Positions 1 through 15,300 of a stretch of DNA of 22,130 nucleotides are shown here, piece by piece. The notes beneath the pieces were generated by a model that was given only the letters and a program-made list of their open reading frames with translations, was not told where the DNA came from and made no database searches. Numbering within the stretch: the first letter of the stretch is position 1; each line of letters begins with the position of its first letter. The position numbers and the translations under genes were made by a program. The DNA is from a virus. The DNA is taken from positions 1 through 22,130 of the IMG/VR virus record IMGVR_UViG_3300020463_000154. One strand, 5' to 3'.

Positions 1-490
1 ACGAAATAACTTGTAGTGGTGATCCATTATTAGCTACATCACAGTATACATTGTTCATCTGTATATAACGTATGTTCCAACAAAAGTCAACCTGTGCGGC
101 TTTATCACTTTCAGGTGCCGCTTCGTGTGTACGCATTCTATTAACAACATCTACGGGCCAACACTTAATACCACCATTGCCGTATACTAACCCATTTACT
201 GTATTTTTACCTGCCCAACTTATTACGTCAGTTGGTCTAGTCTTACTCATGTCAAGTTCAGCATTAAAAAAATCTTCTCTTACAATATTATCTGCATCTA
301 CAGTAATAAATCGTTCAGTTTCACTCAGTGCCGCAGCCGCTTTGTGTGCGGCATCACTGCCCCATACTCCATGACTACGTTTAGCCCACGGACATTTATC
401 TAGCAAGTCTGCGTAATTTTCATCAGCATTTGGTTCGTCATAGCTTATAAAAACTATATCAAGTTCAGTAACGGGTATTAAGTCAGACAT
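1..490 (-). CDS. Putative GT-A-like glycosyltransferase, C-terminus cut by window edge
   Basis: The reading frame opens with ATG at 490-488 and stays open to base 1, so only the first 163 residues are visible. The N-terminus (LDIVFISYDEPNADENYADL) leads into a strand ending in ITVDADN, with a DxD motif (DAD) at residues 65-67. That is the layout of a nucleotide-sugar-binding GT-A fold, where DxD holds the metal and the sugar nucleotide. Further on are GNGGIKCW and MRTHE, which I recall from a conserved protein of marine T4-like phages usually annotated as hypothetical or glycosyltransferase. A strong Shine-Dalgarno AAGGAGA (505-499) lies 8 nt upstream, inside the 3' end of the preceding gene. 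The two genes overlap by 8 nt (ATGTCTGA), which suggests translational coupling. The donor and acceptor cannot be told from the sequence. The gene is clear; the enzymatic role is an inference from the fold-type motif. Confidence 0.78.
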   Translation of the reverse strand, partial: MSDLIPVTELDIVFISYDEPNADENYADLLDKCPWAKRSHGVWGSDAAHKAAAALSETERFITVDADNIVREDFFNAELDMSKTRPTDVISWAGKNTVNGLVYGNGGIKCWPVDVVNRMRTHEAAPESDKAAQVDFCWNIRYIQMNNVYCDVANNGSPLQVIS

Positions 491-1493
491 TAATTGTCTC
501 TCCTTTGTAAGAAAATGTTAAATTTCTACTGGATTCTCTACATAAAAATCCACAGTTGTCTAACTGTAATTCGGTGTCAAGTTCAATAGTACTTTCCCAT
601 CCAATATCTGCAAGTGGTAGTTTTAAGTATCCTAGCAGTTGGTTAGGGTTTTTTGGTGCAGTAACGTATATTCCTATGTCAGTATATATTTTAGATTCTT
701 GTGGGTCTCCAAAATTACTTTTCAAATAAAACTGTTCTCCATGTTTAAATAATGTGAAAGATGTATTGATTTCTGGATCCTCAACTGATGGTAATAAAAA
801 TGTTCTACGCTTAGTATATTTACTCGCATAGTCAGCGCCAGTAAATAGAGCTTGTTTTTTAATTCGATAACTTTTAAAAATCTTCCTAGTCATAATACTA
901 ATATCATTCAACGAAACTAATCGTCTTAGAGGTGTCATGTCAAACATCATGTAACCTTCTTCTATTAGCTCTCCTGGGTCAATATCCAACTGCATTAACA
1001 AAAAATTTGGATCGTTTTTCTTAATCATATACAGCGATATCATATCATAGTCGCCGTCTTCTTCTGGATTAACACTGACATTTCTAAAGAATCGTTTACC
1101 TGTCATTCTATATAGTGTATCTTGATTAAAGTTAACTTCCATCTTCCAACTTTGCACATAAAGAATTATGTTAATATCAGCACTTTCTTTACTATTAACT
1201 GGTATTGCACTAAGTTTATTCTCCGCTTCTTTAATTCGGATAACTGCTGATTTTTCTACTAGTCTAAGTTCCTGATTAATGTCGACTACAGCAAATTTTT
1301 TAGGATCTATTGTGCCCATTAGTATTTTGCGGGCATCATCACTCTCTGTCAGTAGATGAGGATTTTTTTGACTTTCTTGAATTTTATTAGACACAGTGAT
1401 AACATCACCGGTCTCCGATTCATAGTATACAACCCACTTTTGTTGGGGTTTATCTTTCCTGTATTCTTTTAATAAAACTGGTTCTAAAGACAT
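483..1493 (-). CDS. Unrecognised phage protein, 336 aa, between glycosyltransferase-like genes
   Basis: I do not recognise this protein. It starts with ATG at 1493 and ends with TGA at 485-483. It has no signal peptide, no membrane segment and no long low-complexity stretch. The N-terminal part (WVVYYESETGDVITVSN, about residues 20-36) looks like a small beta-hairpin module of the kind seen in phage structural proteins. The rest is predicted by eye to be mixed and mainly beta. It overlaps the preceding 301-aa gene by 44 nt, unusually much for this gene set, and no clear Shine-Dalgarno precedes the ATG. The true start could therefore be further downstream, or the gene may be translated by coupling. 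Its 3' end carries the ribosome-binding site of the next gene. Its position inside a late cluster of glycosyltransferase-like genes suggests a virion protein or a partner of those enzymes, but nothing in the sequence proves either. Confidence 0.75.
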   Translation of the reverse strand: MSLEPVLLKEYRKDKPQQKWVVYYESETGDVITVSNKIQESQKNPHLLTESDDARKILMGTIDPKKFAVVDINQELRLVEKSAVIRIKEAENKLSAIPVNSKESADINIILYVQSWKMEVNFNQDTLYRMTGKRFFRNVSVNPEEDGDYDMISLYMIKKNDPNFLLMQLDIDPGELIEEGYMMFDMTPLRRLVSLNDISIMTRKIFKSYRIKKQALFTGADYASKYTKRRTFLLPSVEDPEINTSFTLFKHGEQFYLKSNFGDPQESKIYTDIGIYVTAPKNPNQLLGYLKLPLADIGWESTIELDTELQLDNCGFLCRESSRNLTFSYKGETINV

Positions 1494-2355
1494 CTAATAT
1501 TTCATCTGATATAAAGTTTTCGTCGCTGTAGTGGATAATTCCACTACCTATTATACTATTTTCTATTTGTATTTTTCTATTGTCTGTAACCCAATAGTTT
1601 AACTGTTCTGTCCAACTAAGTGGTATTTCTTCAAATACTGGAAAGCTACCATGTGAATATCTATGTAGATCATAATGATTATTTAGATTCACGCCAATCT
1701 CATTAGTTAGATCCACATAAGCAGTTACTACATTTCCTAACAAGTTTTTTTCAAAACGATCTGGTTTTTTATCAGGAAACTGTTTGGTATATATAGATCT
1801 CCAATGTTGGAAAACTGGATCACACATCTTGAACCATTCTCTAGCTTGTAAACTTTCTTTATGCCAGTATATTAAATTGTAAAAATTTGTAGGTAAGTCA
1901 TACTGAATCTCAAATTCAAACCTCCACATGGGAGGTGTTGGGAAATTTCTATAACTCAATGCTCTTTTAGGTACACTTATTTCTTTAGTAACACTCATGA
2001 CATCCCAAAGGTCGTTAATATCTGTATTAACAAATAGTGTGTCATAATCTACATATATTGTTTCTTGATATGGGCTAGCATAATATATCTGCCAAAGATT
2101 CATTCCGTGAAATCCATCTTTGTGAGCACTATTTCCATACGGAAGTTCTACTATATAATCAAACGCATGTTCATATACTTTAGGAACATTATCTAGTTTA
2201 CCTTTGTCAACTATAAGTGTTACACTTGCTGTTGGGTCACATGTTTTAAGACTACACGCCATAGCATAAGAGAATCGAATTAGATCGTCTCCGGTATCGA
2301 TGCCTAACGTAACAAATCCACGTTTTGGTGTCTCTTCGTCGACTATTTCATTCAT
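1450..2355 (-). CDS. Putative glycosyltransferase, GT8-like (301 aa)
   Basis: The protein has the outline of a GT-A glycosyltransferase. An N-terminal beta-alpha segment (GFVTLGIDTGDDLIRFSYAM) is followed by a strand with VTLIVD, then TIYVDYDTLFVN with a DxD motif (DYD) at residues 103-105. DxD coordinates the metal and nucleotide-sugar in such enzymes. Aromatic-rich segments follow (WRFEFEIQYDLP, NLIYWHKESL), and HYSDEN near the C-terminus could supply a second metal-binding His, as in GT8-like families. The ATG at 2355 overlaps the TGA of the upstream 299-aa gene by 8 nt (ATGAATGA). This is the same spacing seen at the 336-aa/partial glycosyltransferase junction. Sequence upstream gives only a weak ribosome-binding site, so coupling to the upstream gene is likely. 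The sugar donor and acceptor are unknown. It could also be an inactive GT-A-fold protein. Confidence 0.78.
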   Translation of the reverse strand: MNEIVDEETPKRGFVTLGIDTGDDLIRFSYAMACSLKTCDPTASVTLIVDKGKLDNVPKVYEHAFDYIVELPYGNSAHKDGFHGMNLWQIYYASPYQETIYVDYDTLFVNTDINDLWDVMSVTKEISVPKRALSYRNFPTPPMWRFEFEIQYDLPTNFYNLIYWHKESLQAREWFKMCDPVFQHWRSIYTKQFPDKKPDRFEKNLLGNVVTAYVDLTNEIGVNLNNHYDLHRYSHGSFPVFEEIPLSWTEQLNYWVTDNRKIQIENSIIGSGIIHYSDENFISDEILDVFRTSFIKRIQER

Positions 2356-3247
2356 TTTTTAACCGTTCCATAATGTTTTCATAATATCTTGCTAATGCAC
2401 GTTTATTCATTATATGCAAGTTTTGATCAGTGTGTCTAACCAAATAGTTTTTCCATTGTTCTGCTCTATCATGCTTTAAAAAAATAAAGTCCTGTACTGA
2501 ATTCATTTCAATGATGTCATCTTTTTGATCCATATTTAATAACGGTTGGTTTTGAAAATCATGTATCCAACTGTCGTTGTTACATCCATTCATCAGATGT
2601 GATGCAATACTTACACAAAAGTCAGTTCTAAATAACATTTTTGGAAATTGATACAGCAAGCTATAGTACTCCCAATGATCTTTAACATGAGCCCACGTAT
2701 CAAAGAACAGTTTACTTTCTTCACTTTGATCAAAGTAAACCACAGTACTCCACCAGTGATTTACTCCTGCATCGTTTAATGTAATCTCATTTCGATAAGG
2801 CATGTCGCCGCCAATATACTGTGCATATCTGTGCATAGCAACAGGCTCATTAGTATCAAACATATAACTGTAAAAGTCGTTCATAATTAAAAAGTCAACA
2901 TCAATCAATAGTGTTTTCTCATATGGCGTAAGATCAAATACCAAATGCTTATTACTATTATTGAACTGTGCATTAAATTCAGTCCACGGACTGTCCATAT
3001 GCTTTCTATAGTTTTTCTTCTGCTCAGTATTATCTAATACAATATGATTGAAGCATCTATCTATCAATGCCCAATCAATATTATTTCGCATCCATTCTTG
3101 GGTACCATCATCAGTTATTAACGTAACACTGATATTGTCCATGTTACGTTTGGCATAGCTTGCTGCTATGATTGCAAACTGTGTGTAATCAAGTTGATCG
3201 TTATTGTACGCAAAAATACATATGCCTTGATCTTCGGGTTTTGACAT
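2348..3247 (-). CDS. Putative glycosyltransferase, GT-A-like (299 aa)
   Basis: The sequence begins with GICIFAYNNDQLDYTQFAII and VTLITDDG. It then reaches YEKTLLIDVDFLIMND, with a DxD motif (DVD) at residues 116-118 after a hydrophobic strand. This is the usual GT-A glycosyltransferase arrangement of an N-terminal nucleotide-binding half followed by the metal-binding DxD. The downstream half is rich in Trp, Tyr and His (NHWWSTVVYFDQSEESKLFF), consistent with an acceptor-binding region. It starts at ATG 3247, 4 nt after the stop of the 115-aa gene, and its TGA overlaps the next start by 8 nt. It is similar in length and layout to the following 301-aa protein, so the two may be diverged paralogues. 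No transmembrane segment is seen, so it probably acts in the cytoplasm of the infected cell. The activity is inferred from motifs only. Confidence 0.78.
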   Translation of the reverse strand: MSKPEDQGICIFAYNNDQLDYTQFAIIAASYAKRNMDNISVTLITDDGTQEWMRNNIDWALIDRCFNHIVLDNTEQKKNYRKHMDSPWTEFNAQFNNSNKHLVFDLTPYEKTLLIDVDFLIMNDFYSYMFDTNEPVAMHRYAQYIGGDMPYRNEITLNDAGVNHWWSTVVYFDQSEESKLFFDTWAHVKDHWEYYSLLYQFPKMLFRTDFCVSIASHLMNGCNNDSWIHDFQNQPLLNMDQKDDIIEMNSVQDFIFLKHDRAEQWKNYLVRHTDQNLHIMNKRALARYYENIMERLKNE

Positions 3248-3251
3248 ATGT

Positions 3252-3599
3252 TTACCAGTCCATTAAACTTTTAATACTTCTTGATTTTTTTAGCTTGTCA
3301 GCTTGAACTTTATATGTATTACTTGCTTCCATATAAGCACTTACAAGTGTTTCTAAAAAATCTTGTGTATCTTCAATTTGGATTGGATTTTCTTTTGTAT
3401 CTACAATTACTACCGAGGTTTTATCTAAATCAACTAATGTCTTTACAAAAGAAATAGTTACAGCATTTGCATCAAAAACACCTTTAGCATAGTGTACTGT
3501 CTGTAATACAGCGGTACGTTGTTTAAGTGTACGTTTTTGATTACTTAATGTAATTCTATAATTTGCAAAGTCTAGAGCTTTCTCGAGTCTCTCATCCAT
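3252..3599 (-). CDS. Small conserved-type phage protein, 115 aa, function unknown
   Basis: The protein opens MDERLEKALDFANYRITLSN and continues with NQKRTLKQRTA, PIQIEDTQDFLETL and a charged C-terminus ending in SLMDW. It looks mostly helical with a central beta-hairpin. I recall very similar small proteins (MDERLEKALEFSNYR-type starts, NPIQIE in the middle) in the structural regions of marine T4-like phages, where they are annotated as hypothetical. The start is well supported: AAGGAGA at 3612-3606 lies 6 nt upstream of the ATG. It is the first gene after a 61-bp gap that carries a candidate late promoter and a sigma70-like promoter, so it probably leads the transcript that includes the glycosyltransferase-like genes. 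No catalytic motif is visible. Confidence 0.88.
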   Translation of the reverse strand: MDERLEKALDFANYRITLSNQKRTLKQRTAVLQTVHYAKGVFDANAVTISFVKTLVDLDKTSVVIVDTKENPIQIEDTQDFLETLVSAYMEASNTYKVQADKLKKSRSIKSLMDW

Positions 3600-3623: not shown

Positions 3624-3653
3624 ACTATAACTTATTTATGCTGTGGTTGTCAA
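3624..3653 (-). promoter_or_regulatory. Candidate sigma70-type promoter in the 61-bp gap
   Basis: On the minus strand a perfect -35 hexamer TTGACA (3653-3648) is followed after 18 nt by TATAGT (3629-3624), which differs from the -10 consensus TATAAT at one position. It lies in the largest intergenic gap of the window and points at the 115-aa gene. A late-promoter-like octamer (3640-3633) lies inside the spacer, so the gap may be used by host-type and phage late sigma factors at different times. Confidence 0.5.
3633..3640 (-). promoter_or_regulatory. Candidate T4-type late promoter upstream of the 115-aa gene
   Basis: CATAAATA on the minus strand matches the T4 late consensus TATAAATA at seven of eight positions. 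T4 late promoters are read by the gp55 sigma factor together with gp33 and the sliding clamp. Initiation about 6 nt downstream would give a leader of roughly 28 nt that contains the AAGGAGA ribosome-binding site. Confidence 0.5.
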
Positions 3654-3660
3654 GTGTTTT

Positions 3661-4848
3661 TTAGCTATCGTCAGCACTTGTAAAATCATTCACGATACTA
3701 AATGTTGGATCAGGACTAACATCTAAGCTAGTCGTTCCTTGTGTGAGAGTGTCTGGCATTAGATAACTTATAGTAGGAGTTATTGATCCGTCTATAACGT
3801 TAGCATGAGTAGTATCATCTAATACAATTTTAAACTGTACTCCAGCACCGCCATTAATATACTTGCCATAAATTCTAAATTTTAGCTGTTGGTAACTACT
3901 ATAGATTCCGTAAGAACTAACATATATTCCAGAGTAACCATAGCCATAGCCATAGCCTCCGCCTCCACCAGCTATTGCAGGAGATGTAAAAGCTGGGTGA
4001 TTACCTTGTCCTGTGATGTATCCATAACCATATCCGTATGTGCTATATCCATAGCCGCCGCCAGGTGTTCCAACTTTTCTTCCTATTGTAACACCACTTG
4101 ATGTAAACAATAATCCTTCGTTAGTGTTAGTATCGCTACCATCGCCGTAATTTGCAGTGAGATCATAAAAACCTTTACCTTCACTTGTTCCGCTAGTTTT
4201 TGCAATACTTTGTGTTACAGTATCCCAATTAAAATTTAACACACCCATTTCATTAATAACATCACTCCAGTTGTAGTATCCTGCTGTACTACCGCCTGTC
4301 ATGTTTAAACTAAGTCTAAGTTGACCTCCTGCGTTAAAAAAATATCTAGCTTTATTGTAGTTGGCCCACTCAAATTTATGTTCACCTTTTAGCTGAAAAT
4401 TCCATGTTGTGGATCTGTTATATCCTGAACTAGGTGCAATTACTGCACTTGCGTTTGTTGCATCTATAGTAGTATGTTTGTTGTTATCTAGTACTGGAGA
4501 AAATTTAGTATCAATTTTATTAAGATCTTCTGCTCTTACTAGTGTACCTGTTGCAATACTAGTTCTATTGGTTGGTACTGCAAAAACTAGTATACTATCT
4601 GTAATATCAGTGTGATTTATAGAGATATTAGTTTTTTCAACTAACCCTTGTAATTGTTCTGCTGTTATAAGATCAGATGTATTAGCTACTACGTTAGGTG
4701 CCGATCCCCAACCAAATTTATGTGTGTCAACTCTATTGGCATCCGTCACAGCCGCAGAACTGTATATGTCTCCGAATACTTTGTTTACTTTGGATCCCAC
4801 TGTATTAAAATGGACAGCGGTTGCTATTTGACCGACGGAATTCGCCAT
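3661..4848 (-). CDS. Tail-fibre/virion protein with Gly-Tyr repeat segment, 395 aa
   Basis: The protein starts MANSVGQIATAVHFNTVGSK and contains modules that I recall from marine T4-like virion proteins: FGWGSAPNV followed by ITAEQLQGLVEKTNISINH (about residues 45-80), and ARYFFNAGGQLRLSLN (about 166-182) followed by W-D-V-NEMGVLNF. A glycine/tyrosine-rich segment occupies about residues 262-306, with GYGYGYGY runs and a GGGGG stretch. A beta-rich C-terminus (LKFRIYGKYINGGAGVQFKIVLDD) ends in an acidic tail. The ATG follows the TAA of the upstream 303-aa gene with no gap, and GGAG 8 nt upstream serves as ribosome-binding site. Glycine-rich loops are known to form receptor-binding tips in T-even gp38 adhesins, so this may be a distal, receptor-contacting protein; that role is an inference. 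It is the last gene of the three-gene fibre unit. Confidence 0.88.
   Translation of the reverse strand: MANSVGQIATAVHFNTVGSKVNKVFGDIYSSAAVTDANRVDTHKFGWGSAPNVVANTSDLITAEQLQGLVEKTNISINHTDITDSILVFAVPTNRTSIATGTLVRAEDLNKIDTKFSPVLDNNKHTTIDATNASAVIAPSSGYNRSTTWNFQLKGEHKFEWANYNKARYFFNAGGQLRLSLNMTGGSTAGYYNWSDVINEMGVLNFNWDTVTQSIAKTSGTSEGKGFYDLTANYGDGSDTNTNEGLLFTSSGVTIGRKVGTPGGGYGYSTYGYGYGYITGQGNHPAFTSPAIAGGGGGYGYGYGYSGIYVSSYGIYSSYQQLKFRIYGKYINGGAGVQFKIVLDDTTHANVIDGSITPTISYLMPDTLTQGTTSLDVSPDPTFSIVNDFTSADDS
3932..4064 (-). repeat. Gly-Tyr codon repeats within the 395-aa virion protein
   Basis: Two clusters of the hexanucleotide GGNTAY encode GYGYGYGY-type runs. One at 3932-3969 reads GGC TAT three times in succession after a run of five glycine codons. 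The other at about 4019-4064 is more degenerate. They are separated by about 17 non-repetitive residues (GQGNHPAFTSPAIAG). Exact hexamer repeats of this kind can change copy number by slippage without shifting the frame. Confidence 0.8.
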
Positions 4849-5760
4849 TTACTTTGCTCCGACTACTATTTCTATTGTACCTGCTTCTTCGGTAGTTTTA
4901 TCCTCTAAAGCTCGTCCTAGAACAAACTTCCAACTGTAATCATCTCCTGCTGCCGTTCCAACTCCGTCTGTTCCACTTGATACAATTCTATCGCCTTTAG
5001 TAATTTTGCCAATTACCTTACATGGTACTCTTCCTGCTAGAGCAATATAAGGATGTGTTGCATCTGTGCCTGCGGCACTATTCATCTCAAATCCAGGCGC
5101 TGTACTAACCACTCCAAATATTGCAACATCGTTAGCTGTAGTTGTTTGTGTAATTTCTTTTGTACCACCAATTTTAACTATTGTTCCAGCCGCATATTCT
5201 GCATCAGCTTCATAACGTTCTGCAAGGTCAGCATATTCTGCTGTAACTGCTGTTCCTCTAAACTTATAGTCTGTTGTGGTATTCATATTAGTACCTGCAC
5301 TAATAGTTGGAAACTGTGTGCTTAGTAGTGTAACACCGTCTTCTAAAAATTCAGTTACTGCTGGCGTCCACGCTGTAGTATCATCTGTCATAATTGTTAC
5401 AATATTTGCATCTACAATATGTTCTATTGTTTTATGAAAATTTCCGCCTGTATCTTTTCTGTTTCTAAATACAATCTTAGTCGTACCCGAACCTGCTAAA
5501 AGTGCAGTCCAAATTCCATTATCGAAAAATTTCATTTGACTCTCTGCACTATCATACCAAAGTTGACCTTCAGTTGGGTTTGTGGGAGCTGTTGGATTTG
5601 CAAAATTTTCTAACAAGTGTAACATATTTTCGTTTAGTATTTCACCAAAACGTGTATAGTTTTTACCAATCAGTCCAACACTTGTACTTGTATCTATTGT
5701 TCCATCGTTTACAACTATTGCTGTTTTTCCGCTGTTGCTATAATCTATTGTATATGGCAT
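4849..5760 (-). CDS. Tail-fibre-type virion protein, 303 aa
   Basis: The N-terminal region has a pattern that I recall from fibre-type proteins of marine T4-like phages: GKNYTRFGEILNENMLHLLE (residues 32-51), then NPTEGQLWYD (61-70) and MKFFDNGIWT. This short module recurs in tail fibres. After a variable middle, the C-terminal third contains YADLAERYEADAEYAAGTIV (about 175-194), GVVSTAPGFEMN (about 214-225) and ALAGRVPCKVIGKITKGDRI (about 236-255). That order resembles the C-terminal domains of phage fibres and spikes, including the Peptidase_G2 type. The start is supported by AAAGGA about 7 nt before the ATG, lying in the 11-bp gap after the 199-aa gene. Its stop codon directly abuts the next ATG. 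I infer a trimeric fibre or fibre-base protein. Confidence 0.87.
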   Translation of the reverse strand: MPYTIDYSNSGKTAIVVNDGTIDTSTSVGLIGKNYTRFGEILNENMLHLLENFANPTAPTNPTEGQLWYDSAESQMKFFDNGIWTALLAGSGTTKIVFRNRKDTGGNFHKTIEHIVDANIVTIMTDDTTAWTPAVTEFLEDGVTLLSTQFPTISAGTNMNTTTDYKFRGTAVTAEYADLAERYEADAEYAAGTIVKIGGTKEITQTTTANDVAIFGVVSTAPGFEMNSAAGTDATHPYIALAGRVPCKVIGKITKGDRIVSSGTDGVGTAAGDDYSWKFVLGRALEDKTTEEAGTIEIVVGAK

Positions 5761-5771
5761 ATCTTTTCCTT

Positions 5772-6371
5772 TTACAAGTCTGCAAAACTTGATCTAATTC
5801 TTAATGTGTATATGACTTGAATTTTTCTGTTAGCACTTTTTTGTACTGGATGAAAAATAACATGGGTTAACAAATCGTTGTTACCCGAGTATAGTGCAAG
5901 TTCATCAAACACATATGTTCCGTTCATGTTAGTAGCTGTATCTGAGGTATCTTGACCTGTTACACTACCGTAGTCCAATGTACATGTTGTAACAACATCA
6001 CTGTATGTATTTGGTGCAGTATGACTAGCCTCTGTACCGTTTAATGCACTGCCACTTACTGCTTCGTCAACTGCTTGACTAAATGTTTGATTGTATAATG
6101 CTCCACTAGCACTGTTGGTGTTAGTTGCTTTATATGTTACTGCGCCAAGTCCGTCTATTGCAGTTCCGCCATTACCAAATCGCATTGTAGCAACTTGGTG
6201 TGTGCTGGTTGCACCACTTTCATTGGCTAATAGACTAGCAATAGCAATACTCATATTTTCATAATTAATTGCATTGCGTCGACGTACTAGTACTTCGCCA
6301 GATTCTGGGTCAAGGATTTTAATATGTCCTTCTATCCCTATTAATGATGTGTCTATCTTTTCCAAGCTCAT
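5772..6371 (-). CDS. Virion structural protein, fibre-associated, 199 aa
   Basis: Residues near the N-terminus (GHIKILDPESGEVLVRRRNA then INYENMSIAIASLLANESG), the central MRFGNGGTAIDGLGAVTY and the C-terminal YVFDELALYS followed by LLTHVIFHPVQKS form a pattern that I recall from a small structural protein found next to tail-fibre genes in marine T4-like phages. I chose the ATG at 6371, not the in-frame TTG at 6383. The ATG is preceded at 4 nt by GGAAAG, while the TTG itself forms part of that ribosome-binding site. The gene begins 22 bp after the end of the giant structural gene, directly downstream of a perfect TATAAATA late promoter. It is the first of three fibre-type genes that probably share a transcript. 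Its exact place in the virion is unknown. Confidence 0.88.
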   Translation of the reverse strand: MSLEKIDTSLIGIEGHIKILDPESGEVLVRRRNAINYENMSIAIASLLANESGATSTHQVATMRFGNGGTAIDGLGAVTYKATNTNSASGALYNQTFSQAVDEAVSGSALNGTEASHTAPNTYSDVVTTCTLDYGSVTGQDTSDTATNMNGTYVFDELALYSGNNDLLTHVIFHPVQKSANRKIQVIYTLRIRSSFADL

Positions 6372-6390
6372 TGTTCTTTCCAATTTAAAG

Positions 6391-6398
6391 TATTTATA
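6391..6398 (-). promoter_or_regulatory. T4-type late promoter TATAAATA
   Basis: The minus strand reads TATAAATA, an exact match to the T4 late promoter octamer, overlapping the TAA stop of the giant structural gene. Initiation about 6 nt downstream would give a 14-nt leader carrying GGAAAG before the ATG at 6371. This would start a separate late transcript for the 199-, 303- and 395-aa fibre proteins. Confidence 0.65.
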
Positions 6399-9300
6399 TC
6401 GATCCCGGACCTACATTTCTAATGAATGCATGTTCAGGTGAAATTCCTGCAGCACTTAGGCTTGTACCGCTGTCGTTGTATGCTAAACGTAGTCCATCTC
6501 CATAATGTGAGAATTTTTCTAGTGTTGGAATACGTGTCGATGGTCCACTGTGTATTATAGTTGAGCCGCCGGTGTGTGCTTTTGCACTTGTTCCTAATGT
6601 GCCTCTTTTGCAATATAGTAGATTATTATTGTCTATTGCATCATATTCAATTCTTTCACCATTTATATATACAACCCCAGGCTCTGTGGTTGGATTATCA
6701 AAGAACGTTGTACTTGTTGCTGGTATTGTAGTGTCTGTTGCTGTTACGCTGCTACTTAGTGTTGTTTTATGAGCGTCATCAATGACATTACTGATCTGTA
6801 TATCGTTGGGTTGATATATGCACATTCTAAATGCTCTAGTATTTGCATCATATGTACTACCACTTGTATTTGTTTGTACTGTTATTGCAATATTCTCTGT
6901 ATAGTCTGTTGGTACAAGTTCTTCGCCCCAGCCTTCTAGTGCAGGTTGCTGGAATACGTTTCCATTATAGTCGTATTCTAAATCTGCTTGTTGTGTTGTA
7001 AACAATGAACTATCTACATTTGCAAGTGTGCTAGTAAAGTCGCCGCCTGTTAGTATTGTATCACCTTCCCAAGTTCTAATGCTATGATCTTCATACTTTA
7101 TAGTAATTTCAATGTTTCTACTTTGCTCTTCAATCTCTGTAGTTGTCGCTTCGCCGTATGTATTACTATCCATACTGCTTAGTAATTTTGTATGGAAAGG
7201 TTTTACACTATTAACAAACTCTTCAACAGGGTCGATTGTATATGGATTGTATGTTTTCTTATTCAATAGTAATGGATGTTTTATCGCAAGATGTGTGTTG
7301 GTTGTTTTAAATGCAAAGTCATCTGCTGTATTTTGTAATAGTGCAGTGAATAACATTTTAAACCATAACTTATTATACTTAACCTGATGCTTGCCAATAA
7401 ATATTTTCGTTCTAATCAAATCAAACAGTTTGCTAAGAACAATTTCACTACTACTATCAAAAGGAGTTACGTCAAATCCTTGTGCATCATATCCGTGTCC
7501 AAACTTTGGATTAAGCCATAATTCTTCACTAAGTTCTATTGTTGCTCTTTCTTTGAATACTAGCTTATCAGTACCTCCAGTGAAATGATACATTTCACTT
7601 CGAGCTATTCCTAATAAACTAGATGTATCTTTAACCAATACATAACTTCCTTCTACTGGATCGCCAGCGTCTAAATATGCTTGTTTTGTTTCATATACTA
7701 CGTCAGCTACGGTATTAGGGTTAAATCTAAATGTAACATTATTATTATCATCTCGTTCTACTAGATGCCAATCTTTAAAAGCTACATAATCACTTACTTT
7801 ATAATTTACAGTACCTTCAACAAATTCATGACTGAAAGCAGTCTCCCAGTTATTCATTTCATCTATAACGTTTACCTCTCTTAACAACGAGTTTACAGTA
7901 TAAACAAAGTTTTGTCTAGCCTCTTCTAGCTCTCTATACAGACTTTGTCTTGGTCTGATCTGATGTCCGTATCTATTAAATTTATGTAGCTTTAAGTTAG
8001 GAACAGGCTGATCTCTTCTTATGATAATGTCATTGGCTTCTGTACTATTATCTTCTTTAAAGTCGTAAATTCTATTCCAATGTGATGTATCACTGTCAGT
8101 ACTAGGTTGATTATTAAGATTGCTGTCAACTCTACTGATGTAGTAATTATCTCCATCTTTAACTACTGCATCTGCTGCATATGAAGTGCTACCCGACCAT
8201 GTTGTAAATAATTTTGTAATACTGTGTTTGTTAAATCCACACAAGCTATCACGTACTTTAATATGCAAGTACTCAGGGATAACACTTTGCGAGTCTGCTT
8301 CTGCAAGCATTAACCAATCTTGCATTGCTAAAGCATTAAATCTTCTATCAACATCTAATTGTACAACTGTATTTTGTGTAACTGAATTGCTAATACCTGA
8401 CAACAATAATGTATCTGTGCCTGCTGTAGCACACCAACTTAAATTATATCCACCGGGGTCAGTTAATAGTTGACTTAATTGTAATACATTGTACTGTCTA
8501 ACACCACTAAAGTTTGTTTTGTTTTTAACCCAGAAATAATATGACGTTTCAGTTTGTTTTGTACGGTTATTATAGTACGACTGTTCAGTCCAATTATATA
8601 CTTCCTCGCCGTTTACAATAGTAAAATATACTTCGCCGCTGGCTGTATTACCGTCTACTACTGTTCCTCTATCAACTAAAGAACTCCATGCTTCTGGAAG
8701 CACAGGAGATCTTGTCCATTCATATATGTCTATGCTTGCACCGTCAAAAAGTTTACCCCAGTTGTTTTGCATATAGTCTATGGTACCTTGTTCATAATCT
8801 AAATAAACTGCTTGACTTAAATCCCACCAACGTTTTCCAATATAATTGCTATCCCATGCATCAGGATTATCTATTTCTCCGTCTAGTGTATTATAGTTAT
8901 AATTTGCAACATCGTTTGTTAGTTGAATATCTATCTCATTATCAATAAATCCAAATATAATACCTTTAACCGGATCCCATGTTTCTAAACTAGTAATAGT
9001 TGTTTGCTTAACAGCATCATATAGTTTAACATTCTTAACCAAATCATTTCTTGCTTGCTTATTGCCACTACGAACTATTTGCCAAGAGCCAACATTGCCG
9101 TTTATATCGTCCCATGTGCCTACCCATTTATAAACTTGACTGCTAGGATTACTTGCATCGCCGTCATTGTCTACGAATGTATAAATTGGATTAAGTGCAT
9201 TATCTTGCCTAACACTTGCAAAATTATATTTGTAAACTCCGTTTACTTTTGTTTGTCTGTCTGCTTCCATAGCAGTATATGTGTTAAATCTCATTTTTCT

Positions 9301-12300
9301 CAATGGATAAATGTTACCGGCATCGCCATCAGTTTCAATGTATTCATCAATATAAAATCTTGCTACGTTATTTGTATCTACTCTTGAAACCTGATGTATT
9401 CCATCAATGCTAGGAATTGAATTACTACCGTTAATGAATACATAGTCTCCAACTTCTAAGTTATGTGCTTGTACATTTCCAGTTTGTCTAACAATATCAA
9501 TCTGTGCTTCATCACTACTTACAATACCAGTACATACTTTATTAGTGTACATACCAAAATCCATTGTTTGATAAATCTCATGTCCCAGATTATAGTTACC
9601 AAATTCACTATTGTCTGCAACCCAAATACTAAACAAGTTAGGATCATTATTCATTTCAACAAAAATTTGATTCCCATCACTGCCAACAATAGCATTAAAC
9701 ACATTACTTACTGGGCCTTCTGTAGCACTATAAGTTTGTGCTGTTAAACCTATTGTTGTATTTGCAGTACCAGCTCCAATTACCAGTGTTGAGTTTGTAC
9801 TTGAAATGTGTACTTTGTTTTGACTATTTGTAGCAGTCACACCGCTAATTGTTGCTATGTTAATGCTTTCTAAGATATCAGTAATACCAAGTGTTGCACT
9901 AGTTGTTGTGGTAGTTGTACTAGCTGGTGTTATACCACTGTTTATTCCTATAACACTGTTAGCAGTGCCGGGACCAACATAAAGATTACTATTATTACTT
10001 TGTAATCTAATTAAGTTCCCTAATGCACTAGCTGTAATACCTGTTATTCCTGCTTGGTTAATTTGATCAATCACTTGCTGTTGGTTTAGATTAGGTTTTA
10101 ATTCTACATCAGAACTAGTAGCTGATATTGTTTCAGTTGCAGTGTTAAATCCTACAGTAGCATTCATTGTTGCAGCACTAATAGATAATGAAAAGCTAGT
10201 TGAACTATCATTTGTAGTTTTAGTAATTGTTAGTTGACTGTTTACACTTTGTCCTGCGGTTATATTGGCAATGCCTGCCGAAGTAATTTTGGTTATAATA
10301 TCAGCTAACGAATATATTTTAAAACCAGTTGTTGACTCTGATGCAACTTGTGTATCAACGTCAAATACTATTGTAGCATTTGCAGCATTTTTTAAATGTG
10401 TCGCAATATCATCTGTATATGTGCCTAGATTTAGTCTTCCTCGGCAAGTTGTTAGCTGAGCAGAACTAATTGTTTCTGTGCCATCACCAACATTTTGTCC
10501 AATAAAATTTGTCCCCAGTAAGTTGTTTATTAAAATGCAGTCTTGGTCTAGCATGAACTGTGCGGCTGTAAGTGTACTACCACCTAAAGCTATAAGTGCC
10601 TTAAGATGATCAATATTAAGTCCTGCATTGTTTCCAAAATAAGTTTGTATCCATTGCGTCCATGCTGTAGAAGTATTAGCTGCGATATACGCCACTCTTA
10701 ATTGTTCAATCCTGTTAATTCTTTGTGATGCTATTGATGCAATACTACCTTGATTTTGTACCCAGCTACTACTGTTAAATGTGTTCTCAAATGCTACTTG
10801 AGCTGTAATTGGATTAGTTGTGGTCAGAAGGTCGTTAAAGTTAACAGTATTTCCGTCAATCGTTAATGCTGCTGTCGCTGAGCCTTGAATAATTGGATTA
10901 ATAACATTACCTGTTTTTACAATGTCATTGAACGTTGTTACGATAACAACATTACTAAAAGTAATAGTTGAAGCTAATGTTGCTGATTGTCCTAATGTTA
11001 ATGTACTATCATGTGGCACAACATCACTAGTGTTTATATCACCAGTACCGTTTACTGTAATAACATTTAGTGTTTCGCTAACTGCACTCTTTATTAAACT
11101 AATAGTATTGCCGTCTATTATCAATGTTTGCCCGGCTGTTGGGATAACAGGTAGTGTAACTGTGCCGTGAATTTCTATTGGGTTTCTTGCTGTTGCTAGC
11201 CCACTTGCTCCATCTGGATCTGCCATATCCCAAACTCGACCTTTATAAATTACTTTATCTCCTTGTTTATAACTAGTCTTACTGTCCCACTGATCATACA
11301 ACTTCCATTTACCACTAAAGTCGTACACATCTTTTGTTTCTGTTGGAAATAATGTAAAGTCTTCTTTGTTTAATGTTCTGTAGTCAGTTTCAGTCAACAA
11401 TGGTAAACCAGCGTTTATAAAATCTTTTGCAAACATACTGTTTTGATTTTGGTCGTCATATGTTTTTACTTCTCTAGTTGTAAACTGTTCAGAATCTGGA
11501 TTGTAAACGTTTAGCGGACTAGTATCATCGATATCAATTACAATATCACTGAGTACATCAATTTTTGGTGCATTTGTAAATCTAATTGGTTGCGGATCTG
11601 TTACTAATAGTTGAGGTGTTATTTGAAACTCAGTTAATTTTCTTTTAGCAGTATCTCCGAAATCAGCCATTCTAACTGCCCACATCTCATGTAAGTCAGC
11701 TGTTGCATCTCCATCAAACAGTCCAGTGTTTCTCATAAATGCATCAAGTGCATAACGAGTACCTTTATATTTGTATGTTCCTTTAACAAACTCGTACACA
11801 CTGTCTTCATCTAAATCTAGTGTGTTGGCCCAATTTGGTTTATTATATCCACTGTTAAATCTAGCAACATCACTTATTTGTTTATTGCTTAATGTGTTTG
11901 TTCTACCCAAGTATTGATCTACTTCTTTAGCTGTAGTATCAAAGTTTGGAAGTATAGAATTACCGTTAACAATATATCCAGGACTGTATAATTTACCATT
12001 CCAGTCTTTAGTTCTACTGCCTCTCCATTGTATACGCTTATGTACTTGCCCAATCTCCGAAGAACTAATTGTATCATCAAAGTTTGTAACATTATCAAAT
12101 ACAAATATATGTTCAATTTGTGATTTATATAATCTAAGTCCGTATAGATTAGTTTTAGTTGAATCTTTAACTTCAAATATTGTGTCTTCATATGTTGACA
12201 TTGACGTTCTATTAATTGCAATATCTGTTGCACTAATTTGCTTGCCTAAGTTATCAAGTATATTATAAACACCGTCGTATCTTGTGTTTAAATTATCAAA

Positions 12301-15300
12301 GTATCCTTCATTGTCATCTTTAACTACAACTGTAGTAGAATCTGGAATCAAATATAGTGGAAACTGTGTAGCTGATCCAGTTGCCCAGTTGCCAAAGTTA
12401 CTTGATGCACTGGTCCAAGACTGTGTAAATCCTAATCCATTAAGATAGTTTCCGTAACCACTAATAAAGTCATAAACTTCTTGTATTGTTTTTAGTTCTG
12501 TGTTATAGTCCAATTGACTAATAGCAGTTTCAAAGTCTGTGTATCTTCTAACATCTACTTGTAGTGTTCCACTGAATGTTACTTTAGCACTAGGTCCGTT
12601 AGTTGCTGGTGCGTTATATCTAAAGTATCCCAAGCTATTATCATAACCGTTAATTGTATAACCGTTAGCAGATTTAGTTACTATAATACCACCAAAAAAG
12701 AATTCAGTATCTGGCTTGTTGTTAAACAGTATAGTGGTAAAGTTTTCTTCTGGTACAAATACTCTGCCTTTATCTTGACTGCTTTCTAATATAAAGTTTT
12801 GATTGTTGTTTACAAACCCGCCTGCTTTAACAATAGGACTGAATGTCATATTTTTAAATCTGTTTAGAATTGTATCAGCATCATTGCCGTTAAACTTAGC
12901 ATATTCAATAATACAGTTACTCAATCCATTAAAATAATGTCTTGCATTATCAGCTAGTTGAGCTTCGAGTATAGCATCGCCGCTACTCAATACTATTGTA
13001 GGTCTATTATAATAACGCTCGCCTGGGTCTAGTACTTTTGCACTAATTATCGAACCATTACTTATTTGTACCTGAGCTTTTCCGTTTATTCCAAAGTTAT
13101 CATATATTGTTACAGTTGGAGCACTAGTATATCCACTACCAGCATTTTTAATTCTGACAGACTCGATGATGCTTCCAATTATTTTACTATCAGTAATCTC
13201 AATATCTTTCCAGCTTGTTAATTTTTTGCTATCAGTATTAATTACTTGTGGAATTTCATAACCAATTTTACTTTTGGTTGTTCTCTTTCCTGTTTTAAAG
13301 TAAAGATTACTTGCAATCAATGGTCTGACTCTGGTCAAAGCAATCATCTGAGCAAATTTAAATTCACTAGTTCTGCGCCACTGTTCTTCAATCGGACCCC
13401 AGTCTCCATATACAAAGTCTTTTTGTCTTTCTACTAATGTTGGACTAGTTACAACTCCTGCAGCAACAGGATCATTTAGTACACCTGTGTTATCTACTAG
13501 AGTATTGTTTGCCCAATCATATGATAAATTATGCAAACTTAGACTATAAAATGCGTTTGCTGAAGAAGGATCACTTGTCAACCCATATTTTAGTGCAGTA
13601 ATTAATGCTGTACGTTTACTCGCATCTGTCCAGCTATAGTTTGCGTCCCACCAGCTTGGTTTTTTGTTATACCCTAGCATCTCCCAAGGAGTAATATGTG
13701 GCTTGTCAGTATTAAAGAAGTATCTATATAATCCTCTCCATCCACCTATGTTAGGAGTAACACTACTGTAATTCCAGGTAAACTTATCAGCACCATTGTA
13801 ATAACTGTCGCTAGTTAAATTAACAATCTTGTTAGCTACTTTCCATTTATTAAATTCGCTTTTCATAGCACTGTGAAATTCTGTCCAGCTATAAGGTGTT
13901 GGTCTATTAGCATTTGGCCAGTATCTTTTAGAATCTGAAATAGATTCTAAGCCATCACTTAGATTGTTAAACATTCTTAATTCTAAGTCCCATAGTCCAG
14001 CATCAACTGGATCAAACCCTGCTACTTGTCTGTCATAAAGTTCTGTTCCGTTGCGTACATGGATACTACCATCGTGTCCAATAATTACACTATCAGTTGC
14101 TGTACCTGTACTATCTTTACTGTAATCACTCCTCAGTTCAGGTGTGTAAGGTTGTATCAATCCTACTTTTGAAGCACTCGGAGGAACAAAGCTAACACTA
14201 TCTTTTGCATACCATCTAACATGTATATTGTTTTTGCCACTACCAGGAAATGTAATTCCACTCAGTGTAATAGTAACTTGATAATCACTAAGTGTATACT
14301 CAATATCTTTAACTAATGCTCTCCATGTGTGGGCACCAGCAGCATCAGGTATCTGTATCCAAACCTGTATATGGTTCTGTGTATCATTATATTTGTTTAC
14401 TGCAAAAGGCAAATCAAAAACAGGTGATTGATTCAATACCCAACTGTAATTTTTACTTTCATAGTCTCTATACATTGCTACTTGACTTCTTGCAAAAATA
14501 CTATCTTTATTTTTACCTAAATTTATTGCTTCTAATGTTTTGTCTACTAGTTTATATACAGGCTCTGATATATCTGTTGATTCATGTAACTGTTTAATTT
14601 TATGTCTGAATAGTTTCTTAAACTCTTTGTATGAATTGCTACTATATTGTAAACTACTAACAATATCAGTATCATTTTCTGTAAACAGTTGACTTATTAG
14701 TTCTGTAGAAAAAACCTGTTGCTTTATTATACCACCGTGTGTGTGATCATGTACAATATTTCTCCAGTTGTTTGTTCCAAACCAATCATTTTCAAATAAA
14801 GGATTTGATATCATCTGTGATCTCATATGACCAAGTAAATCTCCAAAACTAACTTTACCAAAAGTTAAATTCTGTGGATTCTCTAGATGTGTGTCTGCAA
14901 CTTTTTGATATCCTTCAACATCATCACTATATCTTGCATCAGTAAAGCATTCTAATTTGTAAATGTCATCTTTCCGTAAACCACTACTAACCGTTACTAT
15001 GTTTCCGGATAGTGTGTAGTTTGTTATTTCTTTTCCATTTTTAGTAATACGAATATTTTCATCTTTTGTAGCAGTTTTTAAAAATACAACACCAAAATTT
15101 GTTGGATCTGCCGCTAGTCTATATTTAAAACTAGTAATAGTTGGTGTTGCTATTGTTAATGTAAATACGTCATTGCTACCCGCACTTCTAGTAATTCCAC
15201 TGCTTAATGCAGTACCATCAATATCAACAAACTCAATTTCAGCCTGAGGGAATCGAGTTCTAATAGTATAAGTGGTACCAGTATTTAAAAATAAGTTAGG

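Follow-up and report, generated by a model that had tools for sequence, protein, structure and literature searches.

A 22,130-base IMG/VR window (record IMGVR_UViG_3300020463_000154, the whole stretch analyzed here) carries three glycosyltransferase (GT) genes, GTa, GTb, and GTc, in one run behind tail-fiber genes, and we consider it somewhat probable that their products modify fiber or tail proteins in the cytoplasm, which is the best reading of this block. Its carriers are a large and widespread group of uncultured aquatic jumbo phages. Every gene of the tail and GT run lies on the minus strand, in the order gp25-like baseplate protein, baseplate-wedge protein (1193 aa), orf9, orf8, orf7, orf6, orf5, GTa, GTb, orf2, and GTc. 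The open reading frames of the block (2–490, 483–1493, 1450–2355, and 2348–3247, all minus) overlap their neighbors by 8–44 nt, and 4 nt separate GTa from orf5, as an earlier sequence-only reading of this DNA had described (spacing of 4–44 nt, or overlap). That reading also placed the cluster next to the fiber genes; it does lie behind them in a single operon-like run, but orf5 and a promoter-bearing gap of 61 nt intervene before GTa.

GTa (2348–3247, minus; DVD at 2902–2894, H278) and GTb (1450–2355, minus; DYD at 2049–2041, C-terminal His275) are supported by sequence profiles as GT8-type glycosyltransferases, GTa via GTb. Direct scans of the window GTs as single sequences against Pfam, NCBIfam, and PHROG returned nothing usable, and deep profiles alone gave matches. 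Specifically, the GTb profile (A8, 55 sequences) reaches glycogenin-1, a GT8 enzyme, with E 6e-6 and DxD motifs aligned, in a match that covers the N-terminal third alone, while 2 of the 55 members of this set match Pfam GT8 (best E 0.022). GTa and GTb are homologous across 200 columns (hhalign 99.8%, E 4e-30), and the GT8 status of GTa runs through GTb because its own profile reaches glycogenin at E 0.87. The pair thus resembles glycogenin-1 in its N-terminal GT-A part with the aligned DxD and in a conserved C-terminal His, and differs in lacking a significant single-sequence Pfam match and in the degeneration of GTb in one clade. Residues D116, D118, and H278 of GTa are invariant in 124/124 sequences. 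For GTb, P95, D103, D105, and H275 are invariant in the intact set, both DxD Asp are kept in 79 of 108 homologues, and 25 of the 29 homologues without the DxD have also lost the C-terminal His. Going by these sequence losses, GTb seems to have become a noncatalytic partner in part of the lineage, as in other paired transferases. The profiles thus support the GT-A-type identity first proposed from the DVD and DYD motifs. In one clade (L005:10861-11571 and relatives), an unrelated 235-aa gene replaces GTb, and three GTc copies are present.

The window copy of GTc (2–490, minus; DAD at 298–290) is cut by the window end and holds the first 163 of about 325 aa, and its structure was taken from a predicted model of a full-length relative (L010:11845-12825, pLDDT, predicted local distance difference test, 82). 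The best Protein Data Bank (PDB) matches to the first 160 residues of this model are GT-A enzymes (B4GALNT1, SunS/ThuS, and TarP), with Z 11.2 and a root-mean-square deviation of 2.9 over 141 aligned residues for B4GALNT1, and a Foldseek E of 3e-4 for SunS, at low Foldseek TM-scores (about 0.3). Only slightly lower scores go to nucleotidyltransferases, which share this core. A strand at residues 60–65 leads into D65xD67 in the model, and both Asp are invariant in 184/184 sequences; given this invariance, that of GTa, and the retention in 79/108 GTb homologues, the three DxD motifs are not chance occurrences. The predicted fold supports GTc as a GT-A-fold glycosyltransferase, in agreement with what its DAD motif had suggested, and comparison of the GTa and GTc profiles gave no significance. 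Three Roseibium contigs (L181, L183, and L185) each hold one GTc homologue, about 40% identical, behind two smaller genes common to all; these homologues are outside any GT cluster and have no GT neighbors in common, so they give no functional clue.

The fourth protein of the run, orf2 (483–1493, minus, 336 aa), was left as unknown by the sequence-only reading. Its AlphaFold2 model (pLDDT 85) is a multidomain beta-sandwich (FN3/Ig-like) with weak FN3-like PDB matches and stronger ones to uncharacterized phage proteins, and on this model orf2 is no glycosyltransferase. Over 94 loci, it is also less conserved than the rest of the block at nearly all distances, which makes it the fastest-evolving gene of the run. 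A structural or acceptor role would suit orf2 better than an enzymatic one, making it a candidate virion protein or acceptor/adaptor.

The position of the block is conserved among 169 related IMG/VR loci. Because the loci were gathered by their GT similarity and some are near-duplicates, counts across them are not independent. Relatives repeat the order orf9-orf8-orf7-orf6-orf5-GTa-GTb-orf2-GTc with few changes, and an orf6-family fiber gene plus orf5 precede GTa in 149 of the 157 loci having enough upstream sequence. GT homologues adjoin structural genes and not DNA-modification clusters, an outcome that strongly supports the placement originally proposed and answers one of the refutation tests set in that first reading. 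Within ten long contigs, GTa matches (and weaker ones to the neighboring GTb) are confined to the tail-block site, and extra GTc copies are found elsewhere. A search of 50,697 cultured-phage records gave no homologue of GTa, GTb, GTc, orf5, or orf6. The conserved 115-aa protein orf5 (3252–3599, minus), between orf6 and GTa, adjoins GTa in 159 loci and is possibly an assembly or adaptor factor.

Among the structural proteins, the candidate acceptor is orf6 (3661–4848, minus), a 395-aa fiber protein with a Tyr/Gly-rich tandem array at residues 260–318 (window 3895–4071) that holds 13 Tyr in 59 residues. Of 102 unique orf6 proteins, 57 have such an array, against a mean of 0.6/102 after shuffling; among the 1971 other proteins encoded at the loci, the one that has it is a fragment grouped with the orf6/orf8 cluster. 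Their spacing varies among relatives (GY, GGY, SGY, and GEY) while the Tyr is constant, and repeat type and length shift quickly, the GTa tree showing at least 10 gains or losses. Since Tyr is the residue to which glycogenin attaches glucose, these arrays gave rise to the idea of Tyr glycosylation. A coupling between Tyr arrays and the GTb DxD was considered: counted by locus, the association has a Fisher P of 8e-5, but pairs that are independent on the tree show no link, and such coupling is therefore not claimed.

The intergenic gap upstream of orf5 measures 61 nt in the window and a median of 63 nt in relatives, compared with a median of at most 23 nt at other junctions. A TTGACA-N15-19-TATAAT pair with at most 1 mismatch is found in 51 of 90 nonredundant orf5-upstream regions, where shuffling predicts 0.5, and the TATAAATA-like late motif shows enrichment in these regions, too (47 vs. 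24 expected). The window holds a near-perfect copy of this conserved sigma70 site, overlapping late-like CATAAATA; specifically, TTGACA-N18-TATAGT at 3624–3653 (minus) overlaps late-like CATAAATAAG at 3631–3640. A test for T4-type late promoters upstream of the GT block (TATAAATA without a −35 element) found the motif enriched twofold and the −35/−10 sigma70 pair far more enriched, whereas upstream of orf8 the late-like motif (35 vs. 16 expected) comes without sigma70 enrichment. This sequence pattern suggests to us that the GT operon has a sigma70-type promoter of its own, accompanied by a late-like element. The late promoter that had been called likely is hence present as a motif, but the main conserved element is the sigma70 site. 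Since such a promoter would allow the GT operon to be transcribed apart from the tail genes, the argument from late coexpression with structural genes is weakened: the GT block has sigma70 and a weaker late-like motif, and the tail gene orf8 has the late-like motif only.

Behind GTc, the loci continue into a variable island in which radical S-adenosylmethionine (SAM) genes of the twitch/SPASM type are present in 97/131 loci. Their main group belongs to an NCBIfam twitch-domain family (E down to 1e-124), with 21 matches in one 198-kb contig (G002, behind L137) and 15 each in G005 and G006, counts that include fragments and weak matches, not all of which adjoin tail genes. Nucleotide-sugar enzymes (CTP_transf/mannose-P-isomerase, UDP-glucose dehydrogenase, and epimerase) are found in 24/131 islands and sulfotransferase-like genes in 8/131. 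The island resembles cyanophage clusters in part (epimerase, cupin isomerase, HIGH nucleotidyltransferase, and UDP-glucose dehydrogenase). By hydropathy, the core has no polytopic membrane protein, and 2 of 763 genes behind GTc have at least 4 transmembrane-like segments. A literature search for GTs together with radical SAM in phage tails found no paper. Two loci of one sub-clade (L024:7672-9008 and L145:13838-15201) carry genes resembling dihydrofolate reductase and thymidylate synthase directly behind GTc. Separately, a Bdellovibrionia metagenome-assembled genome (L187:9995-13159) holds a GTc-like pair followed by a gene that resembles, by eye, the SPASM radical-SAM group, amid apparently chromosomal genes, possibly a bacterial version of the GTc/radical-SAM association.

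The remaining tail genes indicate what kind of phage carries the block. The baseplate-wedge protein is nearest to versions from SCTP-2, Phosso, the PA5oct group, and the Serratia BF group (jumbo phages; about 35–42%), and the 203-aa structural protein orf8 (5772–6383, minus) is 42% identical to a “structural protein” of Pectobacterium phage CBB. From this kinship, the window is judged to be a piece of a T4-related, jumbo-phage-like genome that is, by sequence, far from every cultured phage. The 303-aa orf7 (4849–5760, minus) is a fiber/structural protein with PHROG matches to virion structural and tail fiber families, and orf9 (6394–17676, minus) is a giant structural protein of 3760 aa whose homologue in Sinorhizobium phage Phosso is a “virion structural protein.”

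Phosso, and with it Agrobacterium phage Atu_ph07, offer a cultured parallel. Phosso has homologues of orf9, orf8, and orf7 (E 2e-137, 3e-45, and 2e-55). Next come a protein judged by eye to be cupin-like, a SPASM radical-SAM enzyme whose closest matches are peptide maturases, and a 306-aa protein (L206:41627-42547) with the C-terminus CHTSCHASCHSSRSRR. The same set lies behind the orf8 homologue of Atu_ph07, where the 296-aa counterpart (L209:18089-18979; 42% identical overall) ends in CHSSCHASCHNSRSRR. The C-terminal tail CHxSCHASCHxSRSRR is therefore conserved in two proteins adjoining SPASM radical-SAM genes, and by its sequence it looks like a core of the ribosomally synthesized and post-translationally modified peptide (RiPP) type on a possible virion protein. 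Both phages thus share with the window a giant structural protein and orf8 followed by radical-SAM enzymes, and Phosso also an orf7 homologue; by contrast, the Phosso region searched has no homologue of GTa, GTb, orf2, GTc, orf5, or orf6. The same slot in the enterobacterial phage CBB and in Vibrio phage 2.275.O has no such modification-type enzymes. That the slot behind the structural genes holds protein-modification-type enzymes in two forms is, among the independent lines of evidence, the strongest one for a virion-protein target.

Under the reading we prefer, GTa, GTb, and GTc would be soluble cytoplasmic enzymes and the constant leading part of an island for virion-protein modification. 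The block would be expressed from its own sigma70 promoter, probably early and again late, and sugars would pass from nucleotide-sugar donors to tail and fiber proteins while these are being made, with orf6 and its Tyr/Gly array and the beta-sandwich orf2 as the best candidate acceptors. GTa would be the obligate active GT8 enzyme; GTb would work as its active partner in the majority of the phages but be a pseudoenzyme in a marine sub-clade; GTc would add or extend a sugar. Diversity of the decoration would come from the variable genes downstream of GTc (twitch/SPASM radical-SAM, sulfotransferase-like, and nucleotide-sugar enzymes), and may alter receptor contact or hide the fiber. Counting in favor are the GT identity, catalytic residues kept over deep divergence, the fixed tail position, and a core free of polytopic membrane proteins, together with the nucleotide-sugar and radical-SAM enzymes, the confinement of Tyr/Gly arrays to orf6, and the Phosso/Atu_ph07 slot. 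Several points weigh on the other side: gene content, homology, conserved motifs, synteny, and the promoter were observed, but substrate (donor and acceptor), product, linkage, timing, and effect are ones that we infer, gene adjacency in T4-like phages is indirect evidence of function, and the sigma70-like promoter means that GT expression may be early. In addition, a freshwater clade keeps all three GTs without Tyr arrays, and the tree shows no correspondence between the arrays and the GTb DxD. A bolder version, in which fibers are matured like ribosomal natural products, is rather doubtful: glycogenin-like GT8 enzymes would O-glycosylate Tyr in exposed Tyr/Gly arrays of orf6, sets of radical-SAM enzymes and sulfotransferases would then add cross-links or groups, and rhizobial jumbo phages would do something analogous through the CHxSCHASCHxS tail. 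If true, fiber chemistry would be combinatorial and fast-changing.

The main competitor is that the GTs and sugar enzymes alter the lipopolysaccharide (LPS) or capsule of the infected cell and so block superinfection, which we judge possible but unlikely. Many GT8 enzymes build LPS, the sigma70-type promoter permits early expression, and cyanophage clusters of GTs and sugar enzymes, alike in their variable part, have been interpreted as host-capsule modifiers (PMC7824862, section 3.4.10), which also tells against a virion target. Nucleotide-sugar synthesis genes accompany the GTs, as in host-polysaccharide clusters, but in only 24 of the 131 islands, and polytopic membrane proteins such as a flippase or polymerase are absent from the island, although clusters reusing host export would lack these as well. 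A tail-operon position fixed over great divergence and a beta-sandwich protein within the GT run also speak against host-surface modification, and twitch/SPASM radical-SAM enzymes are hard to fit with it. Modification of virion proteins, as first proposed from the sequence, thus remains the best explanation, from GT identity and tail-block location, although the host-surface alternative still competes.

Other roles for these genes have less in their favor. The most famous phage GTs modify DNA and are encoded by many phages; here, glycosylation of hydroxymethylated bases is highly improbable, as most loci have no adjoining replication or nucleotide genes, no local DNA-modification genes were recognized, and GTa and GTb are GT8-related by profile. 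The thymidylate-synthase family (PF00303) is found in only 3 of 10 long, possibly incomplete contigs, and the copies near GTc in L024 and L145 carry an FNIA motif whose Asn we take to be a mark of true thymidylate synthases. It is also very unlikely that the GTs are mere GT-fold proteins without a transferase role, for example fiber-assembly factors: the joint loss of DxD and His275 in 25/108 GTb homologues speaks for this, but every GTa and GTc sequence has both DxD Asp, and every GTa sequence also has His278. We hold equally little confidence in the view that the radical-SAM-rich island is mainly an iron-sulfur (Fe-S) auxiliary-metabolism set with the GTs as unrelated neighbors. A-type Fe-S carrier genes are present in 4 of 10 long contigs, and passages of Nishimura et al. 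(2017; PMC5332604) give T4-like marine genomes this reading, including one with 12 radical-SAM genes and Fe-S carriers. However, one would expect an Fe-S supply just as much with the radical-SAM enzymes of the phage itself as its consumers, the tight linkage to GTs and fibers is left unexplained, and GTc-like genes adjoin the SPASM-looking gene in the Bdellovibrionia contig too.

Compared with known systems, the T4-like genomes of Nishimura et al. are alike by description in their many radical-SAM genes and Fe-S carriers, and possibly belong to the same broad lineage; the passages of PMC5332604 make no tie to fiber genes or glycosyltransferases. Cyanophage LPS/capsule clusters (P-SSM2 type; PMC7824862) are likewise variable and contain paralogous GTs alongside nucleotide-sugar enzymes, and the GT block differs from their description in starting at a fixed place behind tail fibers, with a radical-SAM expansion. 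Moraphages, large aquatic phages, have four core orthogroups of putative glycosyltransferases and a lysine-tRNA ligase gene in 24 of 28 genomes compared, according to passages of PMC12619734, which do not describe where these GTs are located. A Moraphage identity is unsupported here, with the tRNA-synt_2 family in 1 of 10 long, possibly incomplete contigs against 24/28 Moraphage genomes. Virion proteins of mycobacteriophages (capsid and tail tube) carry glycans (Freeman et al. 2023, as cited in PMC12619734), and our reading proposes a target of this kind. The present block, known from genes alone, differs in its GT8 pair plus GT-A enzyme, its tail-fiber location, and its radical-SAM and sulfotransferase-like partners. 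Virion glycosylation is thus already known, and the architecture of a GT block with radical-SAM genes appears undescribed. To our knowledge, virion glycosylation has been proven in very few phages and never linked with radical-SAM chemistry.

In a widespread aquatic group of jumbo phages, the GT module belongs to the tail block as a fixed component and is accompanied by an unusually large set of radical-SAM genes. Phosso and Atu_ph07, cultured relatives with an analogous slot, open the idea to testing now. If the fibers are decorated, host recognition in these phages would hinge on enzymes as well as on fiber sequence.

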